Source: Planctomycetota bacterium
GTDB lineage: Bacteria; Planctomycetota; Phycisphaerae; UBA1845; UTPLA1
NCBI GenBank assembly: GCA_015654675.1
Contig: JAATGM010000017.1
Coordinates: 1-64,000, forward strand
Direction: 5' to 3'
Length of the DNA stretch: 64,000 nt
In this document: in pieces, positions 7,553 through 49,055 of the stretch
Layout of the letters: each line of letters starts with the position of its first letter
Position numbering within the stretch: the stretch's first letter is position 1
Translations under genes and position numbers: made by a program
Notes under the pieces: generated by a model
What the model was told of the DNA's origin: nothing
Databases searched by the model: none
What the model saw: only the letters and a program-made list of their open reading frames with translations

Positions 7553-8086
7553 GTGATTGATGAGCCGGTGTCGATTGGACGCGGAACGAAGATTTGGCAC
7601 TTCTGTCACGTGTGTGCGGGGGCGGTGATCGGCGAGCGGTGCTCGCTGGGGCAAAATGTTTTCGTTGGCGGGCGGGCGCGGTTGGGCAACAACGTCCGCG
7701 TACAGAACAATGTTTCGATCTACGACGAAGTGGTGATTGAGGACGATGTGTTCTGCGGGCCGAGCATGGTGTTCACGAACGTGACGACGCCGCGGAGTTT
7801 TGTTTCGCGGAAGGATGCGTTTGAGAAGACCGTAGTTCGGCGCGGGGCATCGATTGGGGCGAATGCGACGATTTTATGTGGGACAGAGTTGGGGCGATAT
7901 TGCCTTGTTGGGGCTGGGGCGGTGGTGACGCAAAATGTTGCGCCGCATGCGCTGGTGGTTGGAGTGCCGGCGCGGCAAATTGGATGGGTGTGTAGGTGTG
8001 GGGCGGAATTGCTGGGGCGAGCGACTTCGTTGAAGTGTCCCGAGTGCGCGGCTACGTATCGTGAACAGCGGGGGGGTGTTGGTTGA
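7553..8086 (+). CDS. wbpD: WbpD-like sugar nucleotide N-acetyltransferase
   Basis: This is a left-handed beta-helix acyltransferase resembling WbpD, which acetylates the 3-amino group of UDP-GlcNAc(3NH2)A using acetyl-CoA. Visible features are GTKIWHFCHV, CSLGQNVFVGG, stacked hexapeptide repeats to about residue 145, and a C-terminal CxC...CPEC pair that may bind zinc. The start is uncertain: GTG at 7553 has no ribosome-binding site, and the family-conserved segment FVHPTSV lies directly upstream in the same open frame (from 7421), where no ATG, GTG or TTG exists. The gene overlaps the next one by a TTGA. Context with wbpI, wbpB and wbpE homologues supports the assignment. Confidence 0.85.
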   Translation: MIDEPVSIGRGTKIWHFCHVCAGAVIGERCSLGQNVFVGGRARLGNNVRVQNNVSIYDEVVIEDDVFCGPSMVFTNVTTPRSFVSRKDAFEKTVVRRGASIGANATILCGTELGRYCLVGAGAVVTQNVAPHALVVGVPARQIGWVCRCGAELLGRATSLKCPECAATYREQRGGVG

Positions 8087-9216
8087 GCGATAAGAAGTTG
8101 AGTGTAGTTTGCGTTTGCGGTGCGCGGCCGAACTTTATGAAGATTGCGCCCCTGATGGAGGCGTTTGCGGCATCGGGGCAGATCGCGACGACGCTGGTGC
8201 ATACCGGGCAGCACTATGACGAGCGGATGAGCGAGCTTTTCTTTCGGCAGCTTGGGATTCCGGAGCCGGAGATCAACCTCGAGGTTGGCTCGGGCAGCCA
8301 TGCGGTGCAGACGGCCGAGGTGATGAAGCGTTTTGAGCCGGTGGTTATTGAGCGGCGGCCGGACTGGGTTGTGGTCGTGGGGGACGTGAACAGCACGATT
8401 GCCTGTGCGCTGGTGGCGGTGAAGCTCGAAACGAAAGTGGCGCATGTGGAAGCGGGGTTGCGGAGCTATGACCGCTCGATGCCGGAAGAGATCAATCGGC
8501 TGCTGACGGATTCGATCAGCGATCTGTTGCTGGCGAGCGAGCCGGACGCGGTCGAAAATCTGCGCCGTGAAGGGCTCGATGGCGAGAAGGTCCAGTTCGT
8601 AGGCAACGTGATGATCGACACGCTGATGAAGCACCGGGCCCGCGCGGATCAGTCGCGGATCTTGTCGGAGCTCGGCGTCGCTCGCGGTGGGTATGTCGTT
8701 GTCACGTTGCATCGGCCGAGCAATGCGGATCGGGCGGAGGCGCTGAGCGAGATTCTCGGGGCGTTTGAGGAAATTGCCAAAGACGTCGACATTGTGTTCC
8801 CGATGCATCCGCGAACGCGAAAAAACCTGTCGCAATTTGGGCTGGCGGATCGTGCGGCGCGAATCAAGCGGTTAAAGATCGTGGAACCATTGGGGTATCT
8901 CGACTACTTGAAGTTGATGGCGGATTCGCGTGCGGTGCTGACGGACTCCGGCGGCGTACAGGAAGAGACGACCATCCTCGGCGTACCGTGTTTGACCATG
9001 CGGCCAACGACCGAGCGGCCTATCACCATTACGCATGGGACAAATCGACTGGTTCCGGTGGGGGCCGACGGGTATTGCTCTCAGAATGCGATTCTGACTT
9101 CGTATCGCGACGCGATTGCTGCGAAGCCGAAGCACGGCGGGCATCCGCCGTTGTGGGATGGCAGCGCCGCAAAGCGGATCGCGGCTTGCTTGTTGAAGGC
9201 AGCATGCGCAACTTGA
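8083..9216 (+). CDS. wecB: UDP-N-acetylglucosamine 2-epimerase, WecB-like
   Basis: The 377-residue enzyme interconverts UDP-GlcNAc and UDP-ManNAc (or a related sugar). It shows GARPNFMKIAPL at the N-terminus, HTGQHYDERMSE, GDVNST, HVEAGLRS, MPEEINR and TLHRPSNAD, which contain the Asp, Glu and His residues conserved in the non-hydrolysing family, plus TDSGGVQEE and TERPITITHGTNRL near the UDP site. It starts at TTG 8083, overlapping the previous stop, so translation is probably coupled. A second, WbpI-like epimerase follows immediately; the TERP segment here marks this one as closer to WecB. Confidence 0.9.
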   Translation: MSDKKLSVVCVCGARPNFMKIAPLMEAFAASGQIATTLVHTGQHYDERMSELFFRQLGIPEPEINLEVGSGSHAVQTAEVMKRFEPVVIERRPDWVVVVGDVNSTIACALVAVKLETKVAHVEAGLRSYDRSMPEEINRLLTDSISDLLLASEPDAVENLRREGLDGEKVQFVGNVMIDTLMKHRARADQSRILSELGVARGGYVVVTLHRPSNADRAEALSEILGAFEEIAKDVDIVFPMHPRTRKNLSQFGLADRAARIKRLKIVEPLGYLDYLKLMADSRAVLTDSGGVQEETTILGVPCLTMRPTTERPITITHGTNRLVPVGADGYCSQNAILTSYRDAIAAKPKHGGHPPLWDGSAAKRIAACLLKAACAT

Positions 9217-10307
9217 AGCTGGTGACAGTGGTCGGGGCGCGGCCGCAGTTTATCAAGGCGGCGGCGGTGAGCCGGGCGATCGCGGCGAACAACGCGGCAT
9301 CTGGCTCCACGAGGATCAGCGAGCGAATTGTTCACACCGGGCAGCATTACGACGCAAACATGTCTGAGGTGTTTTTCCGGGAGCTGGAGATTCCACCGCC
9401 CGCGGTGAATCTGGAAATTGGGAGCGGCACGCATGGGGCGCAGACGGGTGCGATGCTTCAGCGGCTGGAAGAGACGCTGACGGCAGAGCGGCCGGATTGG
9501 GTTCTGGTGTACGGAGATACGAACTCGACGCTGGCGGGGGCATTGGCGGCTGCGAAACTTGGAATTCCAGTGGCGCATGTTGAAGCGGGATTGCGAAGCT
9601 TCAATCGGGCGATGCCGGAGGAGATCAATCGGGTTGTTACAGATCGATTGAGTTCGTTGCTGCTTTGTCCCACGCGGCAGTCGGTGGCAAATCTCATTGC
9701 TGAGGGGATCGAGGACGGTATGCGACAGACCGGCGATGTCATGTATGACTCGGTGTTATTCCATGCCGATCGGGCCAAGCAGAACCGCGACGTTTTTGCG
9801 CGGGCCGGCGTGACGGCAGGTGAGTATGTCCTGGCGACCGTACATCGAGCGGAGAATGCGGATGACGTAGGGCGGCTGGCTGAGATCATTGCGGGGTTGT
9901 CGGCGTCGCGGTTGCCGGTGGTGATGCCGGTTCACCCGCGGACGCGGGCGCGGGTTGCCGAGGCTGGCGTTCGGTTGAACGGCTCGATTCGTGCGATGGA
10001 GCCGGTCGGCTACTTGGAGATGCTGGCTTTGGAGCGGGCGGCGCGGGCGATTGTGACGGACTCGGGAGGCGTGCAGAAGGAGGCGTACTTTCTCGGTGTA
10101 CCGTGCGTGACGGTGCGCGAGGAAACGGAGTGGGTGGAGCTGGTAGAGGCAGGGTGGAACCGTTTAGTCGGAGCGGATCGGGCGGCCATCGCGGCCGGTC
10201 TTGCGTGGGCGTCAGCGTCGGACCGTCCCCCCAAGGGGGTTGGACTGTATGGCGACGGGCGGGCAGCGGAAAAGGTCGTAGCGGAGTTGATCGCGGCGGC
10301 GGCATAG
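9204..10307 (+). CDS. wbpI: UDP-sugar 2-epimerase, WbpI-like
   Basis: The 367-residue protein is a paralogue of the preceding epimerase with the same catalytic segments (GARPQFIKAAAV, GDTNST, HVEAGLRSFNRAMPEE, TVHRAENADD, TDSGGVQKEA). It differs in having VREETEWVELVEAGWNRLV, the form seen in WbpI-type epimerases that act on UDP-2,3-diacetamido-glucuronate and in some WecB proteins. ATG 9204 overlaps the previous gene by 13 bp and has AAGG upstream. Its likely role is the last step to UDP-ManNAc(3NAc)A, but substrate preference between the two paralogues cannot be fixed from sequence. Confidence 0.88.
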   Translation: MRNLKLVTVVGARPQFIKAAAVSRAIAANNAASGSTRISERIVHTGQHYDANMSEVFFRELEIPPPAVNLEIGSGTHGAQTGAMLQRLEETLTAERPDWVLVYGDTNSTLAGALAAAKLGIPVAHVEAGLRSFNRAMPEEINRVVTDRLSSLLLCPTRQSVANLIAEGIEDGMRQTGDVMYDSVLFHADRAKQNRDVFARAGVTAGEYVLATVHRAENADDVGRLAEIIAGLSASRLPVVMPVHPRTRARVAEAGVRLNGSIRAMEPVGYLEMLALERAARAIVTDSGGVQKEAYFLGVPCVTVREETEWVELVEAGWNRLVGADRAAIAAGLAWASASDRPPKGVGLYGDGRAAEKVVAELIAAAA

Positions 10308-10316
10308 CGCGAAGAC

Positions 10317-11402
10317 GTGTCCAGGACAGCAACTAGAAAGCAGACGAAGGAGCAGGCACGGCCGATTGGCGCGGCTGGCAAGCGCGACCTTCGCTTGTGC
10401 GCGGTCGGCGTCGGGAACTGGGGACGGCACGTCCTCTCGGCGTTTGCTCGAACGCCAAATTGCCAGGTGGCTTATGTGTGCGATGCGGATGCCACGGCAC
10501 TCACGCGCGAGGCGGGGAGGTTTCCGGGAGCCCGACAAACAGCGCGGATCGACGACGCCTTGAACGATCCCGAAGTGGATGCGGTTTCGATCGCCACCGA
10601 TGCGATGACGCATGCGCGGCTTGCGATTGCGGCGCTGCGGGCGGGGAAGCATGTCTTTGTGGAAAAGCCACTGGCGATGTCAGCGGCCGATGCACGCGCG
10701 GTGCTCGAAACGGCTCGGTCGGTGGGGCGGAAGCTGATGGTGGGCCACCTGCTCGAATATCACCCGGCGGTTGCAGCGGTCGAACGGTTGCTTCGGCACG
10801 GCGATGCGGGCGAGCTTTATTACGCCTACACCCAGCGGATAAACCTGGGCGTCGTTCGAAAAGACGAAAACGCCTGGTGGTCGCTGGCTTCGCATGACGT
10901 GGCGGTGATCTGCCGGCTGTTCGGGGCCGAGCCGGAGTCGGTTTCGGCGGCGGGGCAGAGTTTCTTGCAGGCAGGCATTGAGGACGTCGTCTTCGCGACG
11001 CTGAAGTTCGGCGATGGGCGAATGGCGCATGTTCACGTTAGCTGGCTTGATCCGCATAAGGTACGAAAAGTAACGCTGGTCGGTGCGCGGAAGATGATCA
11101 CGTTCGACGATATGTCGGCGAACGAGAAAGTCCGCGTGTACGACAAGGGGGCCGATCGCGGTGAACACGTGACGGAGTTTCCGGATGTCATTACGCTGCG
11201 GACTGGCGACATCGTCATTCCGAAGATCGCGGGCGACGAGCCGTTGCTGGTTGAGTGCCGGCATTTTGTGGAGTCGGTTCTGGCGGAAACGCCGGTGCTG
11301 ACGGATGGCGAGAATGGACTGCGCGTGGTGCGCGTTTTGGAAGCGGGGCAGCGGTCGCTCCGCGGTGGCGGGGGCCTGGTGAAATTGAGAGAGATCGAAT
11401 GA
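10317..11402 (+). CDS. wbpB: Gfo/Idh/MocA oxidoreductase, WbpB-like
   Basis: A 361-residue NAD-dependent dehydrogenase. The Rossmann region has VGVGNWGRHVLSAF (about residues 31-44), followed by the family signature HVFVEKPLA near 105-113 and SLASHDVAVI near 200. Because it sits between WbpI-like and WbpE-like genes, it most likely oxidises the C3 hydroxyl of UDP-GlcNAcA before transamination. The start is GTG 10317; the first 25 residues are basic (RTATRKQTKEQ) and may not be part of the fold. The end overlaps the next start. Confidence 0.85.
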   Translation: MSRTATRKQTKEQARPIGAAGKRDLRLCAVGVGNWGRHVLSAFARTPNCQVAYVCDADATALTREAGRFPGARQTARIDDALNDPEVDAVSIATDAMTHARLAIAALRAGKHVFVEKPLAMSAADARAVLETARSVGRKLMVGHLLEYHPAVAAVERLLRHGDAGELYYAYTQRINLGVVRKDENAWWSLASHDVAVICRLFGAEPESVSAAGQSFLQAGIEDVVFATLKFGDGRMAHVHVSWLDPHKVRKVTLVGARKMITFDDMSANEKVRVYDKGADRGEHVTEFPDVITLRTGDIVIPKIAGDEPLLVECRHFVESVLAETPVLTDGENGLRVVRVLEAGQRSLRGGGGLVKLREIE

Positions 11403-12508
11403 ATGTTCCCCTGCTGGATTTGACGGCTCAGTACGCGACGATTCGCGACGAGATTCAGGCGGCGATGCGCGAGGTTTGCGACACGCAGCGATTCATTCTC
11501 GGGGCGACGGTGGAACGTTTCGAGAAGGCGTCGGCCGCGTATTGCGGCGCGAAACATGCGATCGGGATGTCGAGTGGAACCGACGCGCTGCTGGCGGCGC
11601 TGATGGTAGCTGGCGTCGGACCAGGCGATGAGGTGATAGTTCCGCCGTTCACGTTTTTTGCGACGGCCGGGACGGTGGCGCGGCTTGAGGCGCGGCCGGT
11701 TTTTGTGGATATCGAGCCGGCGACGTTCAACATGGATGTGTCGAAGCTCGAGCGGGCGATCACGAAGAAGACACGGGCAATCATGCCGGTGGATTTGTTC
11801 GGCCAGCCGGCGGAAATGGACGCCATTGGCGAAATTGCGCGGCGGAACAAGATTCCGGTGATTGAGGATTCGGCCCAGGCAATCGGGGGGACTCATCGCG
11901 GGAAACGCGTCGGCCAGATGGCTGAGATGACTTGTTTGAGTTTCTTTCCGACGAAGAACCTGGGGGCGTTCGGCGATGGCGGCATGGTGGTGACAAACGA
12001 TGACACACTGGCGAAATCGCTGCGGATGACGCGAGTTCACGGGGCAGAAACCGAGTACCACCACTCGTTTGTGGGCGGGAATTTTCGGCTTGACGCCCTG
12101 CAGGCGGCTGTGCTCGATGTAAAATTGCAGCACCTTGAAAAATGGATCGAGATGCGACGGCAGAATGTGGCGCGGTACAACGAATTGCTTGCGGGGAGCG
12201 GCGTGACGACGCCGGTGGAGCTGCCGCACAATCGCCATACCTATCACCAGTACACGATCAGGATTCCGAACGGCCGGCGCGACCCGGTGTTTGAGGGACT
12301 GAAGGCGGCCGGCGTTTCATCGAAGATTTACTATCCGATTTGCCTGCATCAGCAGGAGTGTTTCAAGAAGTTCGAATACGGGCGGGGGGATTTTCCCGTG
12401 TCGGAGAAGGCGGCGACGGAGGTGCTGTCGCTTCCGATGTATCCGGAATTGACGGAAGAGATGCAGCGGTACGTCGCCGAACAGATTCGGCGCCTGGTGA
12501 AGGGATAG
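11399..12508 (+). CDS. wbpE: DegT/DnrJ/EryC1 sugar aminotransferase, WbpE-like
   Basis: The 369-residue PLP enzyme has the family landmarks: GxxxAL-type substrate segment SSGTDALLAAL (59-69), Asp157 in IEDSAQAIGG, and the Schiff-base lysine K186 in FFPTKNLGAFGDGG. It should transfer an amino group from glutamate to the 3-keto sugar produced by the WbpB-like enzyme. ATG 11399 overlaps the stop of that gene (ATGA); the frame stays open further upstream, but that part belongs to the previous gene. Length is normal for the family. Confidence 0.93.
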   Translation: MNVPLLDLTAQYATIRDEIQAAMREVCDTQRFILGATVERFEKASAAYCGAKHAIGMSSGTDALLAALMVAGVGPGDEVIVPPFTFFATAGTVARLEARPVFVDIEPATFNMDVSKLERAITKKTRAIMPVDLFGQPAEMDAIGEIARRNKIPVIEDSAQAIGGTHRGKRVGQMAEMTCLSFFPTKNLGAFGDGGMVVTNDDTLAKSLRMTRVHGAETEYHHSFVGGNFRLDALQAAVLDVKLQHLEKWIEMRRQNVARYNELLAGSGVTTPVELPHNRHTYHQYTIRIPNGRRDPVFEGLKAAGVSSKIYYPICLHQQECFKKFEYGRGDFPVSEKAATEVLSLPMYPELTEEMQRYVAEQIRRLVKG

Positions 12509-12533
12509 CGGGGGCGCTGTCATCGACGTTGCG

Positions 12534-13502
12534 GTGATCGCTGACCAAACTCAGCTTGATTCGACGGCAACGGGCCCGCGCGAGCATGTCGGGCTGATCG
12601 GGTTTGAATTCTGGTGCAATGTTGTCGGCGACTATCTCGCGGGAACCCCTTATCAATCGCACTATGCGAGCGGCGCGCTCAATTCAGTTCAGGGGCCAAT
12701 CGCTCAATGGCGGATGCTGAATCAATCGCCTTGGCGGGACTTGCGGATCATACATGCGGTCAATGCGTTGGCGGGATTGCGATCGTTGCTGGGATTTCGA
12801 GTGCGCGGATGCCGCGTCGTGCTGCACTGGATCGGCGCGGATTATCGAAGGTTGGCCGCGCGAAATGGCGTGCAGCGACGCGCGACCCGCGCGAGTCTGA
12901 CGGCACTCGGCGCGACACATCTGATCGACTCCCCTGAACTTGCCGACGACCTAGCGAAGCTCGGAATTCATGGCGACGTGGTGCGGCTTGTGCCGCGAGC
13001 CGTCGATGCTGATTTAATGCCTCTGCCGAGCCGGCCGGCTGCGTTGGCTTACTGGGCGGATGGTCGGGCGGATTTTTATGGTCGACCGATCATCTATTCA
13101 CTGGCGCGACGCTGGCCGGACGTGCCGTTTCGCATCGTCGGGCCGTCGGAAGGCGATCCGACTGCTCCCCGCAACGTCGAGTTCCTCGGATTCCAAAAAG
13201 ACCTCGGGCCGGTATACGCGGATACGAGCGTCCTCATTCGCGTGTTGGAGCATGACAGCATCAGTGCAATGGTGCTGGAGGCACTGGCCCGCGGACGCGA
13301 CGTGATATACTCGCGCGAATTTCCCGGAACGCGGCATGCGACCGAGGAACGCGGAGCGATCGAAGCGATGCAGGCGCACATCTCGGAATATCGCGTGAAT
13401 ACGGCAGGCGCTGGCTTCGTTCGTGAGGAGTTTGCACCACGACGTTGGGGCGTAGCGCTGTGCGCGGCATACGATCGGGTCCTGGGGCGGCGAGCCGGCT
13501 GA
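12534..13502 (+). CDS. Probable glycosyltransferase, GT4-like
   Basis: The 322-residue protein has a divergent N-terminal half and a C-terminal GT-B-like half: GRPIIYSLARRWPDVPFRIVG, NVEFLGFQ, then DTSVLIRVLEHDSISAMVLEALARG, which matches the nucleotide-sugar binding E-x7-E region of GT4 proteins (HDSISAMVLEAL). It probably adds one sugar to the growing glycan. The GTG start at 12534 lies 25 nt after the aminotransferase and lacks a clear ribosome-binding site. The acceptor and donor are unknown. Confidence 0.68.
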   Translation: MIADQTQLDSTATGPREHVGLIGFEFWCNVVGDYLAGTPYQSHYASGALNSVQGPIAQWRMLNQSPWRDLRIIHAVNALAGLRSLLGFRVRGCRVVLHWIGADYRRLAARNGVQRRATRASLTALGATHLIDSPELADDLAKLGIHGDVVRLVPRAVDADLMPLPSRPAALAYWADGRADFYGRPIIYSLARRWPDVPFRIVGPSEGDPTAPRNVEFLGFQKDLGPVYADTSVLIRVLEHDSISAMVLEALARGRDVIYSREFPGTRHATEERGAIEAMQAHISEYRVNTAGAGFVREEFAPRRWGVALCAAYDRVLGRRAG

Positions 13503-13509
13503 CAGATCA

Positions 13510-14886
13510 ATGGAATCGGTGATTAGTCAGGTTTCGGAAATAAACGAGCGTGAAGGGGCCGTGGCGCGAGCGGGGCGCGTCTGGCGGTCGCTGCGCGCAA
13601 CGATGCATTCGGAAACGGGATACGCTGGCGGGACGACGACGCGCGATGATGTACGCGCTGTGCGCTGCCTCATTCACTCCGGAGCATCATTGCTCGATGG
13701 GCAGCAGATACACGAATTCCAAGATGAGCTGTCCCAATACCTCGGCAGCCCAAACGTGACCACCTACGGCGCGGCCCGGATGGCACTCTACGTGTTGCTC
13801 AAGGCGATGGGACTGCGCGAAGGCGACGAGATCATTCTGCCGGGCTACAACTGCATTGTGATTCCCAATGCGATCCGTTTCGCAGGGCTGCACCCCGTTT
13901 ACGTTGATATTCGCGAATCCGACTTGAACATCGACCCGGACCTGGTGGAGCGGGCCATCACGCCGCGAACGCGCGCAGTGATCGTGCAACACACCTTCGG
14001 CGTGCCGGCCGACATGGATGCCCTGGCCGACATTTGTTCTCGACGCGGACTGCCGCTGATTGAGGACTGCGCGCATGCGCTCGGAGCTGAGCTGGACGGT
14101 CGAAAACTCGGAACGATGGGTTATGCCGGGTTTTATTCGACCGAGGCCACCAAGATGCTCTCGACCGAGAAGGGCGGAATCCTGGTAACGACTGATGCGC
14201 CGCTGGCCGCGCGGATCGAAGCGACGTATCGCGAATTGCCATTCCGCAATCCGGCGTACGAGTTGCTCATGGCGAAGCGATTCATCATGCGTGGCTGGTC
14301 CGAACGCGGAGCAATTCAGTTTCCCGTCTCGCTGCTGCGAATTCTGGACTTCAAGTCCGGCCTCAGACGGATGGCGCGAATCGAGCGATATGATGCCGAC
14401 GACTACGCTGCCGAGTTGGCCGGCCGGCGCGCCGAGCCCTATCCGTGCAAATTGAGCGCGGTGATGTCGGTAGCGGGTCTAGGGCAGCTTCGCCGGATTG
14501 ATCGAGATATTGAACATCGCAGGATGCTGGCGCGGGAACTCGAACAAATACTGCCGGCCGCCGGCGCTCAAGTGCTGGAATATGACCGTACACGCGGCCG
14601 TCCGAGTTGGGTGCGGTTCCCATTCATCGTTGACGATCCCGCGCTCTGGGCGACGCGCCTGACTGAATGCGGACTCAAGCCCGGTGTATGGTTAAACGAT
14701 CCCTGCCATCCGCGCGGCTCCAACGGCGAGTTTGCGATGTATCGTCGTGGCTCGTGCCCGGTGGCGGAGCGAGTTTCGCAACGAATTCTGAATGTCCCTG
14801 TGCACTCAATGGTTGAATTGGCCTGCATTAAGCGACTTGAACAGTATTGCGGGCGTAGTGCGAACTTCGCGAGTGTCGGGAGCTGA
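13510..14886 (+). CDS. DegT-family PLP aminotransferase (sugar-modifying)
   Basis: The 458-residue protein has an N-terminal extension of about 60 residues, then a DegT fold: TYGAARMALYVLLKAMG (85-101), Asp186 in IEDCAHALGA, and K215 in STEATKMLSTEKGG as the expected PLP lysine. It is related to the protein at 38412-39632. It may make the amino sugar that receives the acyl group formed by the downstream FkbH/ACP genes; this is inferred from position. The ATG is 7 nt after the preceding stop. Confidence 0.85.
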   Translation: MESVISQVSEINEREGAVARAGRVWRSLRATMHSETGYAGGTTTRDDVRAVRCLIHSGASLLDGQQIHEFQDELSQYLGSPNVTTYGAARMALYVLLKAMGLREGDEIILPGYNCIVIPNAIRFAGLHPVYVDIRESDLNIDPDLVERAITPRTRAVIVQHTFGVPADMDALADICSRRGLPLIEDCAHALGAELDGRKLGTMGYAGFYSTEATKMLSTEKGGILVTTDAPLAARIEATYRELPFRNPAYELLMAKRFIMRGWSERGAIQFPVSLLRILDFKSGLRRMARIERYDADDYAAELAGRRAEPYPCKLSAVMSVAGLGQLRRIDRDIEHRRMLARELEQILPAAGAQVLEYDRTRGRPSWVRFPFIVDDPALWATRLTECGLKPGVWLNDPCHPRGSNGEFAMYRRGSCPVAERVSQRILNVPVHSMVELACIKRLEQYCGRSANFASVGS

Positions 14887-14892
14887 TGTATC

Positions 14893-15549
14893 GTGCGGGA
14901 AGGCGTCGAGACCGCGGCGATGAAAGATGACGCATTGTCGAGCGGTGAGCAGACAAGCGTTCGTTCCATCATGGGCGGCACGCTGCGAGGCCTGGCATGT
15001 TTCACGCTTCGATTGTCCTACAAGATCAAGGCGTTACTTCTACGGTTCGTGGTCGGCGAAGAGGCATTGGCGTGCGTGTTGCAGGACGCCGTGCGACCCG
15101 ATCTTGTGCTGACGATGGGCGGGGCGACGCTGGGCAACCATGTTCGTGTCGGTCGCGGTCTGGTTCTTCATGGATCAAAGGGATCGTTTCGAAATCTCTC
15201 TGTGGGCGACGACGTCCACATCGGTCGTGGCGTGTTGATCGATATCGGACATCCTGTCATCATTGGTAATCGCTGCGGCCTCGGTATGTATACCAAGGTG
15301 CTCTCGCATCAAAACGTTGGCGGCAGCAAACTGCGGCATCGTTATCCAAGCGTGGGCGGGCCTATAGTCATTGCCGATGATGTTGTTATTGCGTCGAATT
15401 CCTGCATTCTGTACCCCACTTCGCTGCAGCCGGGGACACTCGTTTCGGCCGGCTCTGTGGTACGTGGCACATACGATAAAGCGTGCGTGCTGATGGGAAA
15501 TCCGGCACGCGTAACCACCGTTTTCGATGAGCAGTCAACCGGAGCGTGA
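14893..15549 (+). CDS. Hexapeptide-repeat acyltransferase
   Basis: A 218-residue serine O-acetyltransferase-like or sugar acyltransferase protein. Imperfect hexapeptide repeats run from about residue 75 to 190 (LGNHVRVG, VGDDVHIGRGVLIDIG, IGNRCGLGMYT, IADDVVIASNSCI), ending MGNPARV, which is typical of the left-handed beta-helix family. It may use acetyl-CoA or the acyl-ACP made by the nearby FkbH/ACP pair. GTG 14893 is given; ATG 14932 is another possible start because the first 13 residues are not conserved in kind. Confidence 0.8.
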   Translation: MREGVETAAMKDDALSSGEQTSVRSIMGGTLRGLACFTLRLSYKIKALLLRFVVGEEALACVLQDAVRPDLVLTMGGATLGNHVRVGRGLVLHGSKGSFRNLSVGDDVHIGRGVLIDIGHPVIIGNRCGLGMYTKVLSHQNVGGSKLRHRYPSVGGPIVIADDVVIASNSCILYPTSLQPGTLVSAGSVVRGTYDKACVLMGNPARVTTVFDEQSTGA

Positions 15550-15550
15550 T

Positions 15551-16462
15551 ATGAACCTGAAGTCTGACGGCCCCGTACAGCCGCTCATGCGGGAAATTTC
15601 GCGGTTGAATCCGATGCAGACTGCGTTCATCGAGTCGGCGCTTCGCGATCTGACGGCGGATGAGCTTCAAGCGCTGGAGTCATACCTCGGATTCTGCAAG
15701 GAATGCGGCGTTGAAACGCCATACCTGGCGCAATGCTATGACCTGATTGTGCGAGACACATTGCGCGAGCAGGTCTATTTCATGCGGCACAAGCGATATC
15801 GATACTCCACATACGCCGAGGTTGCGAACTCCGTTTATCTCAATCCCGAGTACATGCAGAAGTACATGCATGGTCTGGCGTTGACCTCGTATTTCTGGCC
15901 ACAACATGTGGCGCTTCGGCGGCGTTTCATGAAGGCATTGCCGAAGGAACGGAGCGGTCACTATCTCGAAATCGGGCCTGGACATGGCGTTTATTTCATG
16001 AACGCGATGCGATCGTCCCGGTTTGACAGCTTTGAAGGCGTCGACATCAGCCCTAAGAGCATCGAACTGACCCGGAAAATCCTGACGAGCGGACACTTCG
16101 GCCGCTTCGAAAACTACAACCTGCTCTGTCAGGATTTCCTGACCGAGAAGACGTCGCGTGACCAATACGACGCGATTGTGATGGGTGAAGTGCTTGAACA
16201 TGTCGAGCAGCCCGAGGCGTTCTTAAGGAAGATCTCGAGTCTGGCGCGGCCCGATGCATTTATCTGGATTACGACCGTGATCAATGCACCGGCCGTTGAT
16301 CATCTGGCATTGTTCGAGTCGGATGCGGCGTTGGAGAAAATCGTCGCGCAGGCGGGATTGTCGGTGCGCGAGAAACTGCTGATCCCGTACGTGGGCCAGA
16401 CCGTCGCGAATTCGCTGGAAAAGCGATTGCCGATGAACATCGGCCTCGTGCTTGCGAAGTAG
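15551..16462 (+). CDS. Class I SAM-dependent methyltransferase
   Basis: The 303-residue protein has a helical N-terminal part (about 1-120) and a Rossmann methyltransferase domain with YLEIGPGHGVYFM (motif I, near 132-144), the acidic GVDIS, and IVMGEVLEHVEQPEAFL. ATG 15551 is preferred over the in-frame ATG at 15527 because GGAG lies 7 nt upstream and the longer form overlaps the previous gene. It is tightly packed with the VOC, FkbH and ACP genes, so a role in methylating a carrier-bound acyl group or the sugar is likely but unproved. Confidence 0.85.
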   Translation: MNLKSDGPVQPLMREISRLNPMQTAFIESALRDLTADELQALESYLGFCKECGVETPYLAQCYDLIVRDTLREQVYFMRHKRYRYSTYAEVANSVYLNPEYMQKYMHGLALTSYFWPQHVALRRRFMKALPKERSGHYLEIGPGHGVYFMNAMRSSRFDSFEGVDISPKSIELTRKILTSGHFGRFENYNLLCQDFLTEKTSRDQYDAIVMGEVLEHVEQPEAFLRKISSLARPDAFIWITTVINAPAVDHLALFESDAALEKIVAQAGLSVREKLLIPYVGQTVANSLEKRLPMNIGLVLAK

Positions 16463-16465
16463 AAA

Positions 16466-16885
16466 ATGGATTCGTACGGGATGGCCTTTCATCACCTCGG
16501 GTTGGCGGTGCGAGAGCCCGAACGAGCGAGTCGCTTCCTGCGCGGTCTCGGTTACCAGGTTGGCGATGTCGTACACGACCCGTTGCAGCAGGTTCAGCTG
16601 ATCTGGTGCGAGCGTCCAGACATGCCCGCTGTCGAGCTGATTTTTCCGAGCGACGGCCCCGGTCCGCTCGATGCGATCCTCAGCGAGCGGAGCGAAATGA
16701 TCTATCATCTCTGCTACGAATCCGAGGGCGCTTTGGCGTCGGTCGAGGCGATCAAGCAGTCCGGGCAGCGGGTTGTCTGTGTTTCTCCGCCGAAACCGGC
16801 CATCTTGTTCGGGGGGCGACCGGTAAGCTTTTACGTCATTCGCGGATTCGGCCTGATCGAAATTCTGGAGCGCGCGGCTCGATGA
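16466..16885 (+). CDS. VOC-fold protein, methylmalonyl-CoA epimerase-like
   Basis: The 139-residue single-domain-pair protein starts FHHLGLAVREPERASRFL, has VELIFP in the middle and IYHLCYES, then ends FGLIEILE. The spaced His, Glu, His and Glu positions fit the metal site of VOC enzymes related to methylmalonyl-CoA epimerase. Such proteins appear beside FkbH-like and ACP genes in several sugar-acylation clusters, where they may act on a carrier-bound acid. The stop overlaps the FkbH start (ATGA). Confidence 0.83.
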   Translation: MDSYGMAFHHLGLAVREPERASRFLRGLGYQVGDVVHDPLQQVQLIWCERPDMPAVELIFPSDGPGPLDAILSERSEMIYHLCYESEGALASVEAIKQSGQRVVCVSPPKPAILFGGRPVSFYVIRGFGLIEILERAAR

Positions 16886-18678
16886 GTGGAGTCACCCTCG
16901 GTCGGACCGGTGGACGTCGAGGTATGCCGGATTTCGCGTCTCTACTTGCGGCCGTGCGCGAAGCGGACAAGGTGTCGGATCTCTACGGGCGGGACGTTTC
17001 CGTAGTATTCCTGCGTAATTTCACGATCGAAGGAGCAGAGCCGTTCCTCAAGTTTCACCTTCACAAGTCGCGCATTCGCCCGACGATCGCCTTCGGGAAG
17101 TTTGACACAATTCGGCAGGAACTCATGGACGGCTCGTCCGTGGTTCATACGGCGAAGCCGGAAATCGTCGTGTTGGCGCTGATGCTTCCCATATTGGACG
17201 CGAGCTACGGAAACGTGGGGTGGCGCGCCGACGTCGCGATCCGAGAGGTCGAGGGACTCTTTGACCTGGCGGCACGTCAGACGAATGCGCTAGTCGTCGT
17301 CAATACGTTTCTACCGCCAAGCTATCGCGAACTCGGGATTGCAGCCGCGCCGCGCGGCGACGATTTTGAGGGCGAGGTGGCCCGCCTGAACGTATTCGTG
17401 CGAGAGTACTGCCGGAGTCATGCCGCGCAATTCATTCTGGTCGACTGGGAACGATTGCTCCGAATCGTTGGTGAAGAAGCGGGGATTGACCGGCGATATT
17501 GGTATTTGTCAAAAGCGCCGTTTCGACAGGCGTTTCTCAATCTATATGCGCTGGAAATCGCGAAAGTGGCGCGAGCCCTCAAAGGGGCGAGTCGCAAATG
17601 CCTCGTGCTGGATTGCGACGATACGATTTGGGGCGGAACGATCGGAGAGGACGGGGTTGACGGGATCGAGCTTGATCCGAATGAATGGCCTGGGCGGGCG
17701 TTCTATGAATTCCAGCGGACCGTGCTGCAGCTTGCGGCTCGGGGCGTGCTGATCACGCTTTGCAGCAAGAACAACGAGGACGACGTCTGGGAAGTGCTAG
17801 AGAGGCATCCTGCGTGCCTTATCAAACGGGCGCACCTGGCGGCGTGGCGGATTAACTGGAACGACAAGGCGAATGGAATCAGCGAATTGGCGCAGTCGCT
17901 GAATCTTGGGTTGGACGCGTTTGTTTTTGTGGATAACAGCCCGACCGAGTGTGAGTTGGTCAGGCGTTTTCTGCCGGCGGTCGAGGTCGTGCAGGTTCCG
18001 GAAAAGCTGTACGACTATCCGAACCTGCTACTAGAGGAAGGGCTGTTTGATACGCTTTCGATCGGTGACGAGGATCGCCGACGGGGGCAGATGTATCAGG
18101 AAGAGGCGGCCCGGAATTCGGAAAAGGAGAGATTTGCCAGCATCGATGAGTACCTCGCGACGCTTGAGCTCGTGGCTGTAATTCGCGACGCGCGTCCCGC
18201 CGACTTTTCGCGCGTCGCGCAGCTAACGCAGAAAACAAACCAATTCAATCTGACCACGCGGCGCTATACAGAGCCGGAAATAGCTTCGCTGGCGGCCGGA
18301 CCGGATTCGGCGGTTTTCTCGCTCGCGTTGCGCGATCGCTTTGGGGATTTCGGGCTGACTGGCGTGCTGATCGCGCGGCGGCGTGGGCGCGCGGGCTCAA
18401 TCGACTCGCTCCTCCTGAGCTGCCGAATCCTGGGGCGGAAGGTGGAATTGGCGTTCGTCGAAGACGTCCTGTTGTCACTGGAACAGCGGTGGGGGATCGA
18501 ATCGTGGGAAGCCGATTTTATCCCGACGGCGAAGAACGGCCAGGTGGCTGGGTTCTGGGAGCAACTGGGATTCGAAGTGGCTGAGAACGATGGCGGTCGT
18601 AAGCGGTATCGATGCGCCTGCAAATCGCGGCCGCGAACCGGTGGACTGGATTTTATTTTGAGGAGTCAGGGAGACTGA
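16882..18678 (+). CDS. FkbH-like HAD-IIIC protein
   Basis: The 598-residue protein has the three-part FkbH layout: an SGNH-like N-terminal region (FLRNFTIEGAEPFLKFHL, 43-60), a HAD domain with DCDDTIWGGTIGEDG (244-258; the usual DxDxT is present) and FVDNSPTE further on, and a GNAT-like C-terminal domain (about 440-570, KTNQFNLTTRR). Studied FkbH proteins load a glyceryl unit from 1,3-bisphosphoglycerate onto an ACP phosphopantetheine. The ACP gene begins 2 nt downstream, which supports that reaction here. Start: ATG 16882 overlaps the VOC stop; the frame runs upstream only through other genes. Confidence 0.9.
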   Translation: MSGVTLGRTGGRRGMPDFASLLAAVREADKVSDLYGRDVSVVFLRNFTIEGAEPFLKFHLHKSRIRPTIAFGKFDTIRQELMDGSSVVHTAKPEIVVLALMLPILDASYGNVGWRADVAIREVEGLFDLAARQTNALVVVNTFLPPSYRELGIAAAPRGDDFEGEVARLNVFVREYCRSHAAQFILVDWERLLRIVGEEAGIDRRYWYLSKAPFRQAFLNLYALEIAKVARALKGASRKCLVLDCDDTIWGGTIGEDGVDGIELDPNEWPGRAFYEFQRTVLQLAARGVLITLCSKNNEDDVWEVLERHPACLIKRAHLAAWRINWNDKANGISELAQSLNLGLDAFVFVDNSPTECELVRRFLPAVEVVQVPEKLYDYPNLLLEEGLFDTLSIGDEDRRRGQMYQEEAARNSEKERFASIDEYLATLELVAVIRDARPADFSRVAQLTQKTNQFNLTTRRYTEPEIASLAAGPDSAVFSLALRDRFGDFGLTGVLIARRRGRAGSIDSLLLSCRILGRKVELAFVEDVLLSLEQRWGIESWEADFIPTAKNGQVAGFWEQLGFEVAENDGGRKRYRCACKSRPRTGGLDFILRSQGD

Positions 18679-18679
18679 A

Positions 18680-18913
18680 ATGGAACAGCGCGTCAGAGAA
18701 GTGATATCACAGGTCCTCGGCGTCGACGCGAAATCGATCAACAGCACCACATCGGTGCAGAGCGTCAGCGCTTGGGACTCGCTGGCACATATGAACCTGG
18801 TACTGGCGCTGGAAGAGGCGTTCGGAGTGGAATTCACCGATGAGCAGATTCCGACGATGACGAGTTTTCCGGAGGTCCTGAAGGCGGTTGAGGCGCGCGG
18901 CGGCCGGGCGTGA
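18680..18913 (+). CDS. Acyl carrier protein
   Basis: The 77-residue protein is a complete ACP: acidic helices and AWDSLAHMNLVLALEEAFG, in which Ser34 of DSL is the phosphopantetheine site. It starts 2 nt after FkbH and is the last gene of this rightward run. It is most likely the carrier for the FkbH-made acyl group and not the fatty-acid synthase ACP, because no fatty-acid gene is near. Confidence 0.93.
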   Translation: MEQRVREVISQVLGVDAKSINSTTSVQSVSAWDSLAHMNLVLALEEAFGVEFTDEQIPTMTSFPEVLKAVEARGGRA

Positions 18914-18939: not shown

Positions 18940-19857
18940 TTAGCGAACATCGCCGGCCGGGGCCTTCTGCATCGTGGCCAGCATGACGCCAATGTCCCAG
19001 TGGTCGGGCCATCGCCAGCGGGCAAGCCGTTCACGCGTGTGCGTGTTGATGCTTCTCGCCAGGTGAAAGGGATTCAGGAAGCGCAGCGGGTTTGGATGCG
19101 GCGCGGCAGCCGTCCCGTCTGTGGGAACAGAGATGCGAATCACCCGGTCATAGTGAAAATCGGTAAATCCCAGTCGTTCGACAAGTCGTTTGAGCGTCCC
19201 GGGCGAGAAGTAGTGGTAATGGTCGGCCGCCCAGCACCACCAGGTATCGCCCCCGGAGAAACGCGACGCGCTTTCGTAATTGCCGGTGGTGACTGTGAAC
19301 CAGCCCCCGGGCTTGAGGCGCGCGGCGGCAGTCTCAATGACGACATCGGGCTGCGGCAGGTGTTCAATAACGTCCCACATGATAATGGCGTCAAACGCAG
19401 GGCATGGGGGAAGCGTGTCGACTGGCCCGAGATGCATGTTCAGCCCGAACAATTCTTTGGCGCGACGGACGCCGGTTTCGGACATTTCCGTTGATACGAC
19501 GTCGTGTCCGTTCGCGACGAGTACGCTTGAAAACGCGCCGAGCCCACCCCCAATTTCGAGAACGCGCCTTGCCGATGGACACTTGGAATGGAACGCATCG
19601 TAAAGCGCGCTCGCATGTTTGAGCTTGAGCTGCGGGTCGAAGTATGTGTTCTCGTGGCCGGGGGCGTAGGCCTCATTGAAGAAATCGTCGGCGTAGGACT
19701 TGTCGAAGTGCGGACACTGAAAGACATGACCACAAATCCGGCACTCGGCGATTGCGATCGTCGGCCCCAATGGAGTGCGCACATACCGGCTCGTGCGGCA
19801 CTTCGTACCGCAGATGACGCAAATTCCGTCGGCGGTCGGCTTTGCAATGTCTGACAC
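18940..19857 (-). CDS. Methyltransferase with N-terminal zinc-binding cysteines
   Basis: The 305-residue protein has an N-terminal metal site (CVICGTKC, then CRICGHVFQCP) and a class I methyltransferase domain: RRVLEIGGGLGAFSSVL, MWDVIEHLPQPD and LKPGGWFTVTTGN. Proteins of this layout often methylate sugars in surface-glycan loci. GTG 19857 is chosen because AGGAG lies about 10 nt upstream; a TTG at 19911 would add 18 residues and sits 2 nt after the flippase stop. It follows the flippase in a leftward pair that is convergent with the ACP gene. Confidence 0.85.
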   Translation of the reverse strand: MSDIAKPTADGICVICGTKCRTSRYVRTPLGPTIAIAECRICGHVFQCPHFDKSYADDFFNEAYAPGHENTYFDPQLKLKHASALYDAFHSKCPSARRVLEIGGGLGAFSSVLVANGHDVVSTEMSETGVRRAKELFGLNMHLGPVDTLPPCPAFDAIIMWDVIEHLPQPDVVIETAAARLKPGGWFTVTTGNYESASRFSGGDTWWCWAADHYHYFSPGTLKRLVERLGFTDFHYDRVIRISVPTDGTAAAPHPNPLRFLNPFHLARSINTHTRERLARWRWPDHWDIGVMLATMQKAPAGDVR

Positions 19858-19912
19858 TTCTATGCGACTCCTAAACGTACCCAAGATAAGGGCGAAAATG
19901 AATTTCGCCAAT

Positions 19913-21484
19913 TCAGGCGGGTTGGCGACTTCGGATTCGGGCGGCGATCGAACGTGCGGTGCTCAGCGCGCTGTCACGATCGTGCGGGCGCAGCACAATG
20001 AGATATGCACCGATCGCATACACCATCCCACAGACGGCGAAGGAAAGGCCCAGCTCGATGAGATTGTGGGGCGAGCGCCAATTCAGCACTGCGAGGCAGA
20101 CTCCCGCGAATACCGCCGCCAGTGCGATCGGACGGGCGAGCGCGCCGATGTAAAAATCGGTGAACGAGAGGCCCGCTATTTTGCGCAGGTAGTATGGAAT
20201 GAATCCGACCGCGATCGCTGCGAGCGTCAGGCCGGTTCCGGTCGCCAAACCGGAGAGCCCCCACCCCGCGAAACGGCAGAGCGACGTACCCAGAACGACA
20301 TTCAGGATCGCTCCAATGAGGGCGGCGATCGTCGGCGCGGCAATGCGGGCTTGGGCGACAAAGATGGCCTGCGACGGACTGGTTCCCAGCGCGACAATGA
20401 GCGGCAGCAGGAATATCGGGATCGTCCGAGCGGCGAGTGCCTGATCGGGCTTCGGAAGAGACTTGCCGAGCCAGAGCGCCAGAATTGGAGTTGCGTACAC
20501 GGACACGAAAACGCAGACCGGTGCAACCAGACAGGTCGCATAACGGATCGCTGTAACGATCAGGCGACGCATATCTTCACCGCGATCCTGGCTGGAAAGA
20601 AGCGTCATTCGCGGCATGATGATGCGGATCAACGGCGCAATTGCGGAGCGAATCCATGGGTCCCAGCATGCACCGACGCTATAGATCGTGATCATGGCGA
20701 GGCCGGCCGGACCATACAGCCATTTGATGATGAAATTGGCCGAACCGTAGTAGAGCGCCCAGACGAGGGTCCCGATCGTCGAGAACGCGCTGAAAGAAAC
20801 GAGCGACTTGAGCGCGGTCCGGTCGACGTTTCGAAGCGAAAGTTTGAGCCAGGGAAATCCGCGATAGGCCACGGAAACAGCGATCTGATTGCTCACCAGA
20901 GAACCTACCAGCCATGCGACGCCGAACCAAATCAGACTGGGCGCCAGGAAGATAAAGGTGAGGACGATCGTCAGCGTGCGGACGATGTCGCCAGTCAGTG
21001 TGATGACGTTTATTTCCGCCAGTTTCTCTTTGGCATAAAGCGGTGTCGTAAAGATGTTCGTGAAATAAGTCGTCGCGGTCGCGGCCGCGAGGAATACGAG
21101 CAGAATCTGCGAAGCTCGCGCGGCCGTGCCGAGGGCGATAAGCCTGGGCAGGAACAGGGCGCAAATGCTTCCCGCCAGCATAAAAACCACGGCGGTGGCA
21201 AGCATGGCGACGAAGCCCGTACACATGTAGCGGTTGGCCTCGTCGAGATCGTTTCGACCGACGGCGTGCGTTACATACCGCGAAATGGCGGGGCCAACCG
21301 CGAGGGTCAGCATTGGCAAGTAAGTGATGAATGTGCGCACGAGCAACATGGTGCCGTACTCGTCTTTCCCCATGCGCTTGATCATGAAGGGGACGAGCAG
21401 CAGGTTCATCACCATCAGGGTGCCTTGGCACGCGATGATTCCCCCCGCGTTGAGAGCGGCTCGTTGTCGTGTGGTCAGCGTCAC
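19913..21484 (-). CDS. Polysaccharide flippase, Wzx/MATE-like
   Basis: The 523-residue protein has about 12-14 predicted membrane segments with few charged residues, including GIIACQGTLMVMNLLLVPF at the start and LARPIALAAVFAGVCLAVL near the end. This is the layout of lipid-linked oligosaccharide flippases (RfbX/Wzx). It would move undecaprenol-linked units outward for the polymerase at 26030. GTG 21484 is preferred because AGAGGA lies 6 nt upstream; ATG 21574 has no such site and would leave 3 bp to the divergent gene at 21578. Confidence 0.85.
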   Translation of the reverse strand: MTLTTRQRAALNAGGIIACQGTLMVMNLLLVPFMIKRMGKDEYGTMLLVRTFITYLPMLTLAVGPAISRYVTHAVGRNDLDEANRYMCTGFVAMLATAVVFMLAGSICALFLPRLIALGTAARASQILLVFLAAATATTYFTNIFTTPLYAKEKLAEINVITLTGDIVRTLTIVLTFIFLAPSLIWFGVAWLVGSLVSNQIAVSVAYRGFPWLKLSLRNVDRTALKSLVSFSAFSTIGTLVWALYYGSANFIIKWLYGPAGLAMITIYSVGACWDPWIRSAIAPLIRIIMPRMTLLSSQDRGEDMRRLIVTAIRYATCLVAPVCVFVSVYATPILALWLGKSLPKPDQALAARTIPIFLLPLIVALGTSPSQAIFVAQARIAAPTIAALIGAILNVVLGTSLCRFAGWGLSGLATGTGLTLAAIAVGFIPYYLRKIAGLSFTDFYIGALARPIALAAVFAGVCLAVLNWRSPHNLIELGLSFAVCGMVYAIGAYLIVLRPHDRDSALSTARSIAARIRSRQPA

Positions 21485-21577
21485 CCGCGATCCTCTACGT
21501 CCGGGAGCCAGCGACGGTTCCCGTTGAATGAATGTTATCGGCGAAAGCCGGGGGCGGCGTTTGTTTCGGGCCATTGA

Positions 21578-44481: not shown

Positions 44482-45735
44482 ATGGCGGTGATGCCGGACG
44501 TTCAGCCGACACGATTGACGCGCGACGAAGTCGAAAGCGATCGCTGGGTCCTCAATTTCGGCCCGCAGCATCCTGCCACACATACAACGTTGCGGCTCGT
44601 CCTTGAACTCGACGGCGAAACCGTCGTCGGCTGCACTCCCCACATCGGCTATCTCCATAGCGGCTTCGAAAAACTCGGCGAACACCTCGACTACAACCAA
44701 TACGTCGTCGTTACCGACCGGATGAACTACATCTCGCCGATTTCGAACAACATCGCATGGCACTCCGCCTGTGAAGAATTGTTCGGCATTGAGCTGACGC
44801 CGCGCTGCAAGGCCATCCGCACGATTTGCGCCGAACTCGGCCGCATTCAGGACCACCTCTTGTGCGTCGGCGCGGCCGCTCTCGATCTCGGCGGCTTCAC
44901 GGCTTTCCTTTATGGCTTCAACGAGCGCGAGATCATCTACGATCTGTTGGAGGAAATCTGCGGTGCCCGCTTCACGAATAGCTACACACGCGTCGGCGGG
45001 CTGATGCACGACATCCCGCCCGAGTGGCCGGGCCACGTCAAAGACTTCATGAAGCGCCTTCCGCAGGCCGTCAGCGATCTGGAATCCCTGCTCACGCGAA
45101 ATCGGATTTTCATCGAGCGGACGAAGGGCATCGGCGTACTGACGCGCGAACAGGCCATCGCCTGGTCCGTCACCGGGCCGCTGGCCCGCGCCAGCGGAGT
45201 CATGCGCGATCTCCGCAAGGATGAGCCCTACCTCTGCTATGCCGACAACTGGGACGGAAAAGGATCGTCGGCGGTTCAGTTCAAGGTTCCCGTTTCAAGC
45301 GGCTGCGATGTCTACGCACGCTACCTGGTGCGGCTCGAAGAGCTGCGACAGTCGATGCTGATCATCGAGCAAATCGTTGACAACATTCCCACCGGTCCCG
45401 TTAACGTGCTGCCTGATTCGAGAAAGACCCTGCCTGACAAGCGCGAAGTCTACTTCTCGATCGAAGGCCTGATCCACCACTTCGAAATGATCATGTGGAA
45501 CCGCGGCTTCGCGCCGCCGGTGGGGGAGGCCTATGCCGCCAACGAAACTGCCAACGGCGAGTTGGGCTTCTATCTTACGTCGAACGGCGATAACAAGCCC
45601 TATCGCGCTCGCTGCCGTCCGCCCAGCTTCATTAACTATCAGTGCTTTCCGGATCTGATCAGAGGCCATTCCCTTTCCGACGTGGTCGCCGTTCTCGGCA
45701 GTCTGAATATCATCGCGGCGGAGCTAGATCGCTGA
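44482..45735 (+). CDS. nuoD: NADH-quinone oxidoreductase subunit D
   Basis: The 417-residue protein is the 49-kDa subunit of respiratory complex I, part of the peripheral arm next to the quinone site. It has FGPQHPATH (34-42), GYLHSGFEK, DRMNYISPISNN, and RPPSFINYQCF near the C-terminus. AAGGAG lies 8 nt before the ATG. It is separate from NuoC, not a fused CD subunit, and no nuoC is present in the window. It begins the complex I group that includes nuoE and nuoF. Confidence 0.97.
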   Translation: MAVMPDVQPTRLTRDEVESDRWVLNFGPQHPATHTTLRLVLELDGETVVGCTPHIGYLHSGFEKLGEHLDYNQYVVVTDRMNYISPISNNIAWHSACEELFGIELTPRCKAIRTICAELGRIQDHLLCVGAAALDLGGFTAFLYGFNEREIIYDLLEEICGARFTNSYTRVGGLMHDIPPEWPGHVKDFMKRLPQAVSDLESLLTRNRIFIERTKGIGVLTREQAIAWSVTGPLARASGVMRDLRKDEPYLCYADNWDGKGSSAVQFKVPVSSGCDVYARYLVRLEELRQSMLIIEQIVDNIPTGPVNVLPDSRKTLPDKREVYFSIEGLIHHFEMIMWNRGFAPPVGEAYAANETANGELGFYLTSNGDNKPYRARCRPPSFINYQCFPDLIRGHSLSDVVAVLGSLNIIAAELDR

Positions 45736-45782
45736 TCGCCGGGCGCTTCCAATGACCGGCCGTCGCGTTACATTCGCGCGCA

Positions 45783-48991: not shown

Positions 48992-49055
48992 CCGCCGGAC
49001 GTGATGCGTGGGCAAATTGGCCCTATACTTTGCCCCCGCAGGACAGGAGTACCTC

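Follow-up and report, generated by a model that had tools for sequence, protein, structure and literature searches.

The window analysed here is a stretch of 64,000 nucleotides (positions 1 to 64,000 of contig JAATGM010000017.1, assembly GCA_015654675.1) from a bacterium of the Planctomycetota, and between positions 13510 and 18913 it holds a cassette of six genes in which an FkbH protein and an acyl carrier protein (ACP) stand beside a VOC-fold protein, a methyltransferase, an acyltransferase and an aminotransferase. The genes lie on a single strand (+), head to tail, with gaps or overlaps of only a few bases between them. In order, they encode a DegT/DnrJ/EryC1 aminotransferase of 458 aa (13510-14886; PF01041, 218 bits), in which FYSTEATK is presumably the pyridoxal phosphate-lysine motif; a hexapeptide (LbH) acyltransferase (14893-15549; PF00132 (Hexapep), 33 bits); an S-adenosylmethionine methyltransferase of 303 aa that we call MT1 (15551-16462, alternative start 15527; PF13489 (Methyltransf_23), 67 bits); a VOC protein of an FkbH-linked subfamily (16466-16885; PF13669 (Glyoxalase_4), 64 bits); a long-form FkbH of 598 aa (16882-18678, alternative start 16924), which lies well above the curated cut-off of TIGR01686 (282.4 vs 146.65 bits); and an ACP of 77 aa with a DSL serine (18680-18913; PF00550 (PP-binding), 35 bits). 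These are the six tightly packed genes named by an earlier reading made without database searches (the sequence-only reading); all are present and the Pfam and TIGR01686 profiles agree with the names. Gene calling by codon usage gave the same six genes. The likely start of FkbH overlaps the VOC stop as ATGA, the listed open reading frame (ORF) from 16606 being too long, and a promoter and terminator scan found no excess over shuffled sequences.

FkbH is composed of an N-terminal region, a HAD phosphatase and a GNAT-like transferase part, and the sole solved chain that it matches is 3slr (BF1531). The protein carries C514 and, in the HAD domain, D244, D246, T248, S295, K329 and D351; these six do not vary across the 59 distinct FkbH rows, that of the window among them, and we take the conserved HAD and GNAT-part residues to have catalytic roles. 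Residue 352, in motif IV (D-N-S-P), is Asn in the window alone and Asp in 58 of the 59 rows; the Asn form is presumably akin to the motif of NIF/SCP phosphatases, and at an E-value of 0.01 Pfam gives no match to this FkbH other than NIF. The ACP serine is found in all 62 aligned carriers. The source genome, 96% complete with 4.93 Mb in 62 contigs, has a single FkbH gene and three PP-binding matches at an E-value of 0.01, including the cassette ACP. For the LbH acyltransferase, VioB (7txp) is among the solved relatives, and many acetyltransferase models score too.

FkbH was found above the cut-off in 22 of 61 lineage genomes (own genome included), and in 15 of the 17 genomes of the bacterium's own family, again with its own counted. 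In the 22 FkbH loci taken from these lineage genomes, some of which are cut by contig ends, an ACP adjoins FkbH in 20, which rules out a chance pairing of the two. The LbH acyltransferase is immediately 5' of VOC or FkbH in 16 of the loci, and VOC is directly upstream of FkbH in six. LbH also occurs as a fusion protein, joined to a formyltransferase in L030 and L042 and to a GNAT domain in L038 and L046; a DegT-LbH fusion directly precedes VOC-FkbH in L085, another Phycisphaerales contig. A TMEM260-like membrane protein is encoded 3' of FkbH-ACP in 12 of the 22 maps (cluster c2, L029-L046); the window's genome has one match to PF11028, on a different contig.

VOC proteins linked to FkbH

The association between VOC and FkbH, which the sequence-only reading had not foreseen when it listed both genes, was examined from the VOC side, with an alignment of nine VOCs as query, 84,980 species genomes as target and no use of FkbH. 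The search relied on one pattern, PK[PK]A[VIA][ALV]F[GDQ][GN][RK], and returned 60 stretches, from which 39 loci were confirmed and scanned in six frames with profile thresholds of at least 60 bits for FkbH, 25 bits for ACP and 120 bits for MT1. FkbH is present in 34 of these 39 loci, in 29 of them no more than 2 kb from VOC; leaving out the contigs contained in the query (L084, L086, L089 and L094), the counts are 30 and 25 of 35. Three of these contigs (L086, L089, L094) are labelled Phycisphaerae/Planctomycetota, which bears out the planctomycete origin assumed by the sequence-only reading. An ACP match is present in 33 of the 39, which, with the 20 of 22 loci from relatives, bears out the earlier claim that FkbH has a dedicated ACP, and MT1 is present in ten. 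In one locus FkbH lies 7.7 kb from VOC on the opposite strand (L087). Regarding the five loci without FkbH, three of the genomes have an over-cut-off FkbH elsewhere (L101, L102, L107), one has a partial match below the cut-off (L077) and one has none (L103). The phyla represented include Pseudomonadota, Myxococcota, Fidelibacterota, Armatimonadota, Planctomycetota, Bacteroidota, Acidobacteriota, Actinomycetota, Gemmatimonadota and Vulcanimicrobiota.

The exact order LbH-MT1-VOC-FkbH-ACP recurs in two unrelated metagenome-assembled genomes (MAGs), one of Deltaproteobacteria, labelled Myxococcota (L074), and one of Woeseiaceae (L076), while the orders ACP-VOC-MT1-FkbH (L067) and VOC-MT1-FkbH-ACP (L062) are found in other families of the window's own phylum. 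In Microbulbifer halophilus (L099:3190-11535) a single nonribosomal peptide synthetase (NRPS) of 2781 aa comprises condensation domains followed by VOC, FkbH and a carrier domain. Of the 39 VOC loci, 13 contain an MBOAT match, and three of these 13 supplied the MBOAT profile. MBOAT is directly beside VOC or MT1-VOC in four loci (L088, L101, L102, L109) and between FkbH and MT1-VOC in three (L078, L080, L081); the GDSL-like (L088) and DltD-like (L101) neighbours score just under the Pfam cut-offs.

Plasmids provided further examples. Long FkbH matches were present in 88 plasmid records, and VOC in two of the six loci examined. In Sinorhizobium meliloti pSymB (CP140883.1, L118:1564-7443) the order is VOC-MBOAT-409 aa protein-ACP-FkbH, with the MBOAT confirmed by Pfam and a VOC that keeps H10, D38, Q41, E57, H81 and E132; this group has the look of a system that acylates surface polymers from a donor loaded by FkbH. 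Its 409 aa protein is annotated as a TonB-dependent receptor, has no Pfam match and is SGNH-like by eye only. The second locus, of Rhodobacteraceae SC52, reads ACP-FkbH-MBOAT-hypothetical-VOC-acyltransferase. The loci without VOC comprise MBOAT, ACP, methyltransferase and FkbH in Tistrella, FkbH-ACP-WcbI-type acyltransferase in Niveispirillum, a ketosynthase-type cluster with FkbH in Streptomyces, and FkbH near pseB in Maritalea (L121:4667-9987), with no ACP among the genes listed. The FkbH-bearing gene of Maritalea, of 2.46 kb, is beside genes of the SDR, DUF4910 and N-acetylneuraminate synthase families; we take DUF4910 to be the Cj1295 family, and FkbH and ACP genes to be present in the Cj1295 region of Campylobacter jejuni as well. 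In a Paludibaculum plasmid, ACP-VOC is about 20 kb from FkbH.

Since the VOC profile also matches methylmalonyl-CoA epimerases (in 152 of the 246 genomes of a draw from the phylum, at 1e-8), the FkbH-linked VOCs were compared with 13 VOC matches away from FkbH, hand-picked from the strongest in this draw. These epimerase-type VOCs form their own clade (support 98) with the window VOC outside, and none of their genomes is among the 21 of the draw that have FkbH (1e-30). Their neighbours, checked by Pfam at four of the 13 loci, include a carboxyltransferase and/or methylmalonyl-CoA mutase. In the 44 other distinct VOC rows the metal-site positions are nearly invariant (H10 in 44, E57 in 44, H81 in 43, E132 in 44), and Glu36, present in all 13 epimerase-type VOCs, is lacking. 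Asp38 is found in 44 of 44 FkbH-linked-type rows and is replaced by Val or Ile in the 13; unlike motif 109-118, neither Asp38 nor the metal site was fixed by the search pattern. We considered Glu36 as the catalytic base of the methylmalonyl-CoA epimerases and dropped this assignment, as the wild-type, E43L and E43Q chains place E43 at window position 45.

The AlphaFold2 model of the window VOC has a pLDDT of 96.7, and its best Foldseek matches are glyoxalase I of Clostridium acetobutylicum (2qh0 and 3hdp, TM 0.83-0.84 by query length), with methylmalonyl-CoA epimerases ranking after them. H10, E57, H81 and E132 lie in the right strands for a four-ligand H-E-H-E site and align with the C. acetobutylicum glyoxalase; we assume them to be metal ligands. 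The window VOC scores far below the epimerase cut-off (TIGR03081, 32 vs 114.95 bits), and the tree, the residues and the neighbours (at the four of 13 comparison loci checked) rule out that it is an ordinary methylmalonyl-CoA epimerase.

Glycan locus and origin of the cassette

The cassette lies within a glycan locus that spans about 7.5-44.4 kb of the window. According to profile matches, the upstream sugar genes (7553-13502, +) encode an LbH protein, two UDP-GlcNAc 2-epimerases, a Gfo/Idh protein, a DegT and a glycosyltransferase-like protein. The two 2-epimerase genes are in tandem (8137-10307) and score 305 and 300 bits, both above the cut-off of TIGR00236. Past the cassette, a methyltransferase and a flippase-like protein (MatE/Polysacc_synt; 18940-21574, -) run opposite to the otherwise one-directional locus, and are followed by methyltransferases, glycosyltransferases, FemAB, an O-antigen-ligase-like protein, AsnB, deacetylases and a nucleotide-sugar dehydrogenase (21578-44390, +). 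Besides the one at 13510, the window has DegT genes at 11399 and 38412. Relatives of XrtA/PEP-CTERM families are also present, all below the NCBIfam cut-offs (TIGR03006, 221.7/276.2 bits; TIGR03108, 525.8/816.9 bits; TIGR03019, 46.1/260.35 bits). Among the 40 window ORFs scanned with Pfam there was no match to a ketosynthase, ketoreductase or ketosynthase (KS) III, in line with the earlier remark that ketosynthase and reductase are absent, nor to an acyl-ACP dehydrogenase, 3-hydroxyacyl-ACP dehydrogenase or MBOAT. Genes for NADH dehydrogenase 49 kDa-like and 2Fe-2S thioredoxin-like proteins come directly after the glycan locus (44482-49667), and between these two a spermine-synthase/methyltransferase-like protein is encoded.

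In the FkbH tree, the window protein groups with Nitrosospira (L073), L074 and L076 (support 100), and its family, with two order relatives, forms a separate group of 19 rows (100). Vertical inheritance of FkbH with its own family was rejected (p-AU 8.4e-131, log-likelihood 279 lower) in a tree with long branches, the constrained group consisting of 17 family rows chosen after seeing the tree, three of which duplicate others under a second name, and excluding L050, the divergent second FkbH of genome G016. As a further caveat on this rejection, the base composition of the cassette is only slightly lower (58.6% vs 60.1-61.5%). The VOC tree places the window in a group of 14 rows (99), eight of them from Pseudomonadota, with L074 and L076 nearest (82), and the MT1 adjoining VOC in these two loci is 55.6% (L074) and 54.6% (L076) identical to that of the window. 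MT1, VOC and FkbH therefore share a history unlike that of the LbH-(VOC)-FkbH-ACP version of the family, which makes it likely from these comparisons that the MT1-VOC-FkbH part was acquired laterally.

Proposed pathway and alternatives

We propose that the cassette is a carrier-bound acyl-donor pathway that feeds glycan decoration, a reading that we regard as evenly poised as a whole, its parts differing in strength. From what is expected of its family, FkbH would take 1,3-bisphosphoglycerate, the HAD domain removing the phosphate, and load a D-glyceryl unit onto the ACP; by sequence, the FkbH-ACP pair very probably makes such a glyceryl-type donor. Glyoxalase I and methylmalonyl-CoA epimerase both move a proton at the carbon next to a thioester or hemithioacetal, and because a glyceryl thioester offers such a carbon, C2 epimerisation via an enediolate is the most economical guess for VOC. 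In this step, a metal-bound enediolate would form as C2 of the glyceryl thioester is deprotonated and reprotonated, most likely converting D- to L-glyceryl-S-ACP. An action of VOC on the carrier-bound unit seems fairly likely to us, and its assignment as a C2 epimerase is tentative. MT1 may then add a methyl group to a hydroxyl, either on the acyl unit or on the sugar, and LbH would transfer the acyl unit onto an amino sugar that DegT helps to make, this sugar being built into a surface glycan. In the planctomycete locus, decoration of a glycan is the probable fate of the donor. An amine acceptor is favoured because the fusion partners of LbH (formyltransferase, GNAT, DegT) belong to amino-sugar chemistry; that the amine is the one set by the DegT at 13510 is conceivable, if somewhat doubtful.

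In other bacteria the recipient of the same donor would probably be a surface acyltransferase of the MBOAT type or the condensation domain of an NRPS. A bolder proposal, which we hold to be rather less than probable, is that the FkbH-linked VOCs constitute an unrecognised class of ACP-dependent glyceryl C2 epimerases and that FkbH-ACP-VOC(-MT1) is a portable donor module with three outlets: N-acylation of sugars by LbH, MBOAT-dependent acylation of surface polymers (analogous to D-alanylation, with glycerate as the acyl group), and the assembly lines of NRPSs.

Several observations weigh against this pathway. The association is uneven: VOCs of this type keep to FkbH much more strictly than FkbH keeps to them, and most FkbH loci seen are without such a VOC. 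VOC was undetected (E-value 1e-5) in 16 of the 22 FkbH loci from relatives, and hence FkbH-ACP does not need it; the plasmid loci count in the same direction. Among the 21 FkbH genomes of the 246-genome draw, a VOC-profile match near FkbH on the same contig occurs only in G000 and G077, to which gene mapping adds a weak nearby VOC of 47 bits in G224 (L067), and nine carry the VOC match on another contig. The count of VOC residues left out rows below 60 bits, the L067 VOC among them, motif 109-118 owes its conservation partly to its place in the search pattern, and the SC52 VOC, which shares a locus with FkbH, is without D38, so that the D38 signature is not universal. For MT1, a profile search against solved structures found generic methyltransferases only, with no close solved relative. 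The Rhizobium VOC (L075) belongs to the VOC group of the window and its FkbH to another clade, indicating from the trees that parts of the cassette also mix and travel separately.

DegT was matched in none of the 22 loci from relatives (E-value 1e-5) and is not conserved with the cassette; the DegT proteins of L074 and L076, encoded 4-5 kb off, are closer to the window DegT at 11399, and the fused DegT of L085 is closer to that at 38412 than to that at 13510. The gene order on which the sequence-only reading was to be checked recurs from LbH to ACP in L074 and L076, but DegT is not a fixed part of it. A BLASTP search of the fetched loci with the window LbH gave no match at 1e-8; the LbH proteins that occupy its position in L074 and L076 share only 27-29% identity with it and lack the histidine of its SHQ. 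These findings lend some weight to an alternative in which FkbH-ACP and VOC make the glyceryl donor, DegT and LbH carry out a separate N-acetylation of an amino sugar, and another acyltransferase of the locus delivers the glyceryl unit; the acetyltransferase models that score with LbH, and the FemAB and GNAT proteins in the locus, would fit with it. This alternative nevertheless has to account for the LbH gene that immediately precedes VOC or FkbH in 16 of 22 relatives, for the DegT-LbH fusion of L085 and for the spacing of a few bases between the cassette genes, and we consider it unlikely. The earlier suggestion that the acyltransferase hands the unit to an amino sugar stands in part: the position of LbH and the L085 fusion speak for it, and the poor conservation of DegT and LbH does not.

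A second alternative is that VOC does not act on the carrier-bound unit, and is instead a glyoxalase-like detoxifier of methylglyoxal derived from triose phosphates, or an enzyme acting on the sugar. The nearest solved structures are indeed titled glyoxalase I, but in the NRPS of M. halophilus VOC is fused between a condensation domain and FkbH-carrier, with no sugar in play, and the proximity of FkbH, no more than 2 kb away in 29 of 39 VOC loci, extends over many phyla; we judge this explanation improbable to a similar degree. A polyketide-type extender pathway lying by chance in a glycan locus is highly improbable, since the methoxymalonyl-ACP (FkbG-K) set, which shares FkbH, ACP and a methyltransferase with the cassette, also includes acyl-ACP and 3-hydroxyacyl-ACP dehydrogenases, and neither these nor a ketosynthase were matched in the 40 ORFs scanned.

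If the proposed pathway is correct, a small protein family whose sole annotation is 'VOC family protein' would be assigned a function, the stereochemical editing of carrier-bound glycerate. Surface glycans decorated with glycerate could then be predicted from genome sequences, and one shared module would tie glycan acylation to the glyceryl chemistry of NRPS and polyketide synthases (PKS). If the portable epimerase module exists, surface glycans of planctomycetes, rhizobia and other bacteria would further be expected to bear L-glycerate or O-methyl-L-glycerate. S. meliloti, with its pSymB VOC-MBOAT-409 aa protein-ACP-FkbH group, is a direct test organism.

Comparison with known systems

Glycerate loading by FkbH followed by methylation has been proposed for suomilide and varlaxin (PMC10143770, PMC8609519), and glycerate loading alone for the cystomanamides and vioprolide (PMC8949500). 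The NRPS/polyketide pathways of suomilide, varlaxin and vioprolide have FkbH and a carrier, as in the cassette, and the available parts of these texts, which were compared as text and not as cluster sequence, name no VOC. Unlike this glyceryl loading in NRPS/PKS systems, the cassette consists of stand-alone enzymes in a glycan locus, together with a VOC and an LbH transferase.

The nearest studied logic is, by analogy, that of the viosamine island of Pseudomonas syringae (vioA, vioB, vioM, vioT, vioS, vioR and acp), which has in common with the cassette an aminotransferase, an acyltransferase, a methyltransferase and an ACP, and whose product is an N-acylated, O-methylated amino sugar (PMC3927599). 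The comparison with this island made by the sequence-only reading was fair, as was its remark that the lack of ketosynthase and reductase sets the cassette apart. In the island, KS III and a reductase serve the 3-hydroxybutyryl unit, whereas in the cassette, with neither matched in the 40 ORFs scanned, FkbH takes their place and VOC is added. A bacterial amino sugar that bears methylated glycerate, the product type proposed here, is known chemistry: in C. jejuni, flagellin carries a di-O-methylglyceric acid derivative of pseudaminic acid tied to Cj1295 (PMC3068675, a text from which 'acyl carrier', Cj1299, Cj1302 and Cj1304 are absent). The flagellin glycosylation islands of enterobacteria have ACPs and FabG and, in the accessible part of the text, no FkbH (PMC4875605). 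The accessible portions of PMC13130089 and PMC13317340 contain nothing on FkbH or VOC. In one open-access library, which leaves most subscription journals uncovered, no paper with both FkbH and glyoxalase was found, nor, among the matches listed, one on such a set of genes.

Methylmalonyl-CoA epimerase and glyoxalase I share the fold and the four metal-site positions with the window VOC, which differs from the epimerase-type set in its separate clade, in having Asp38 and not Glu36, and in its FkbH-ACP partners in place of mutase and carboxylase. Surface acylation of the Dlt or MBOAT-SGNH type has a parallel in the MBOAT of the 13 VOC loci and of the S. meliloti pSymB group, and delivery from a carrier to MBOAT occurs in DltC-DltB. 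Dlt-type systems use DltA, whereas the cassette has FkbH instead, with no MBOAT match in the window ORFs scanned. With FkbH loading of glycerate already proposed elsewhere and methylated glycerate known from a bacterial glycan, any novelty would lie in the VOC step.

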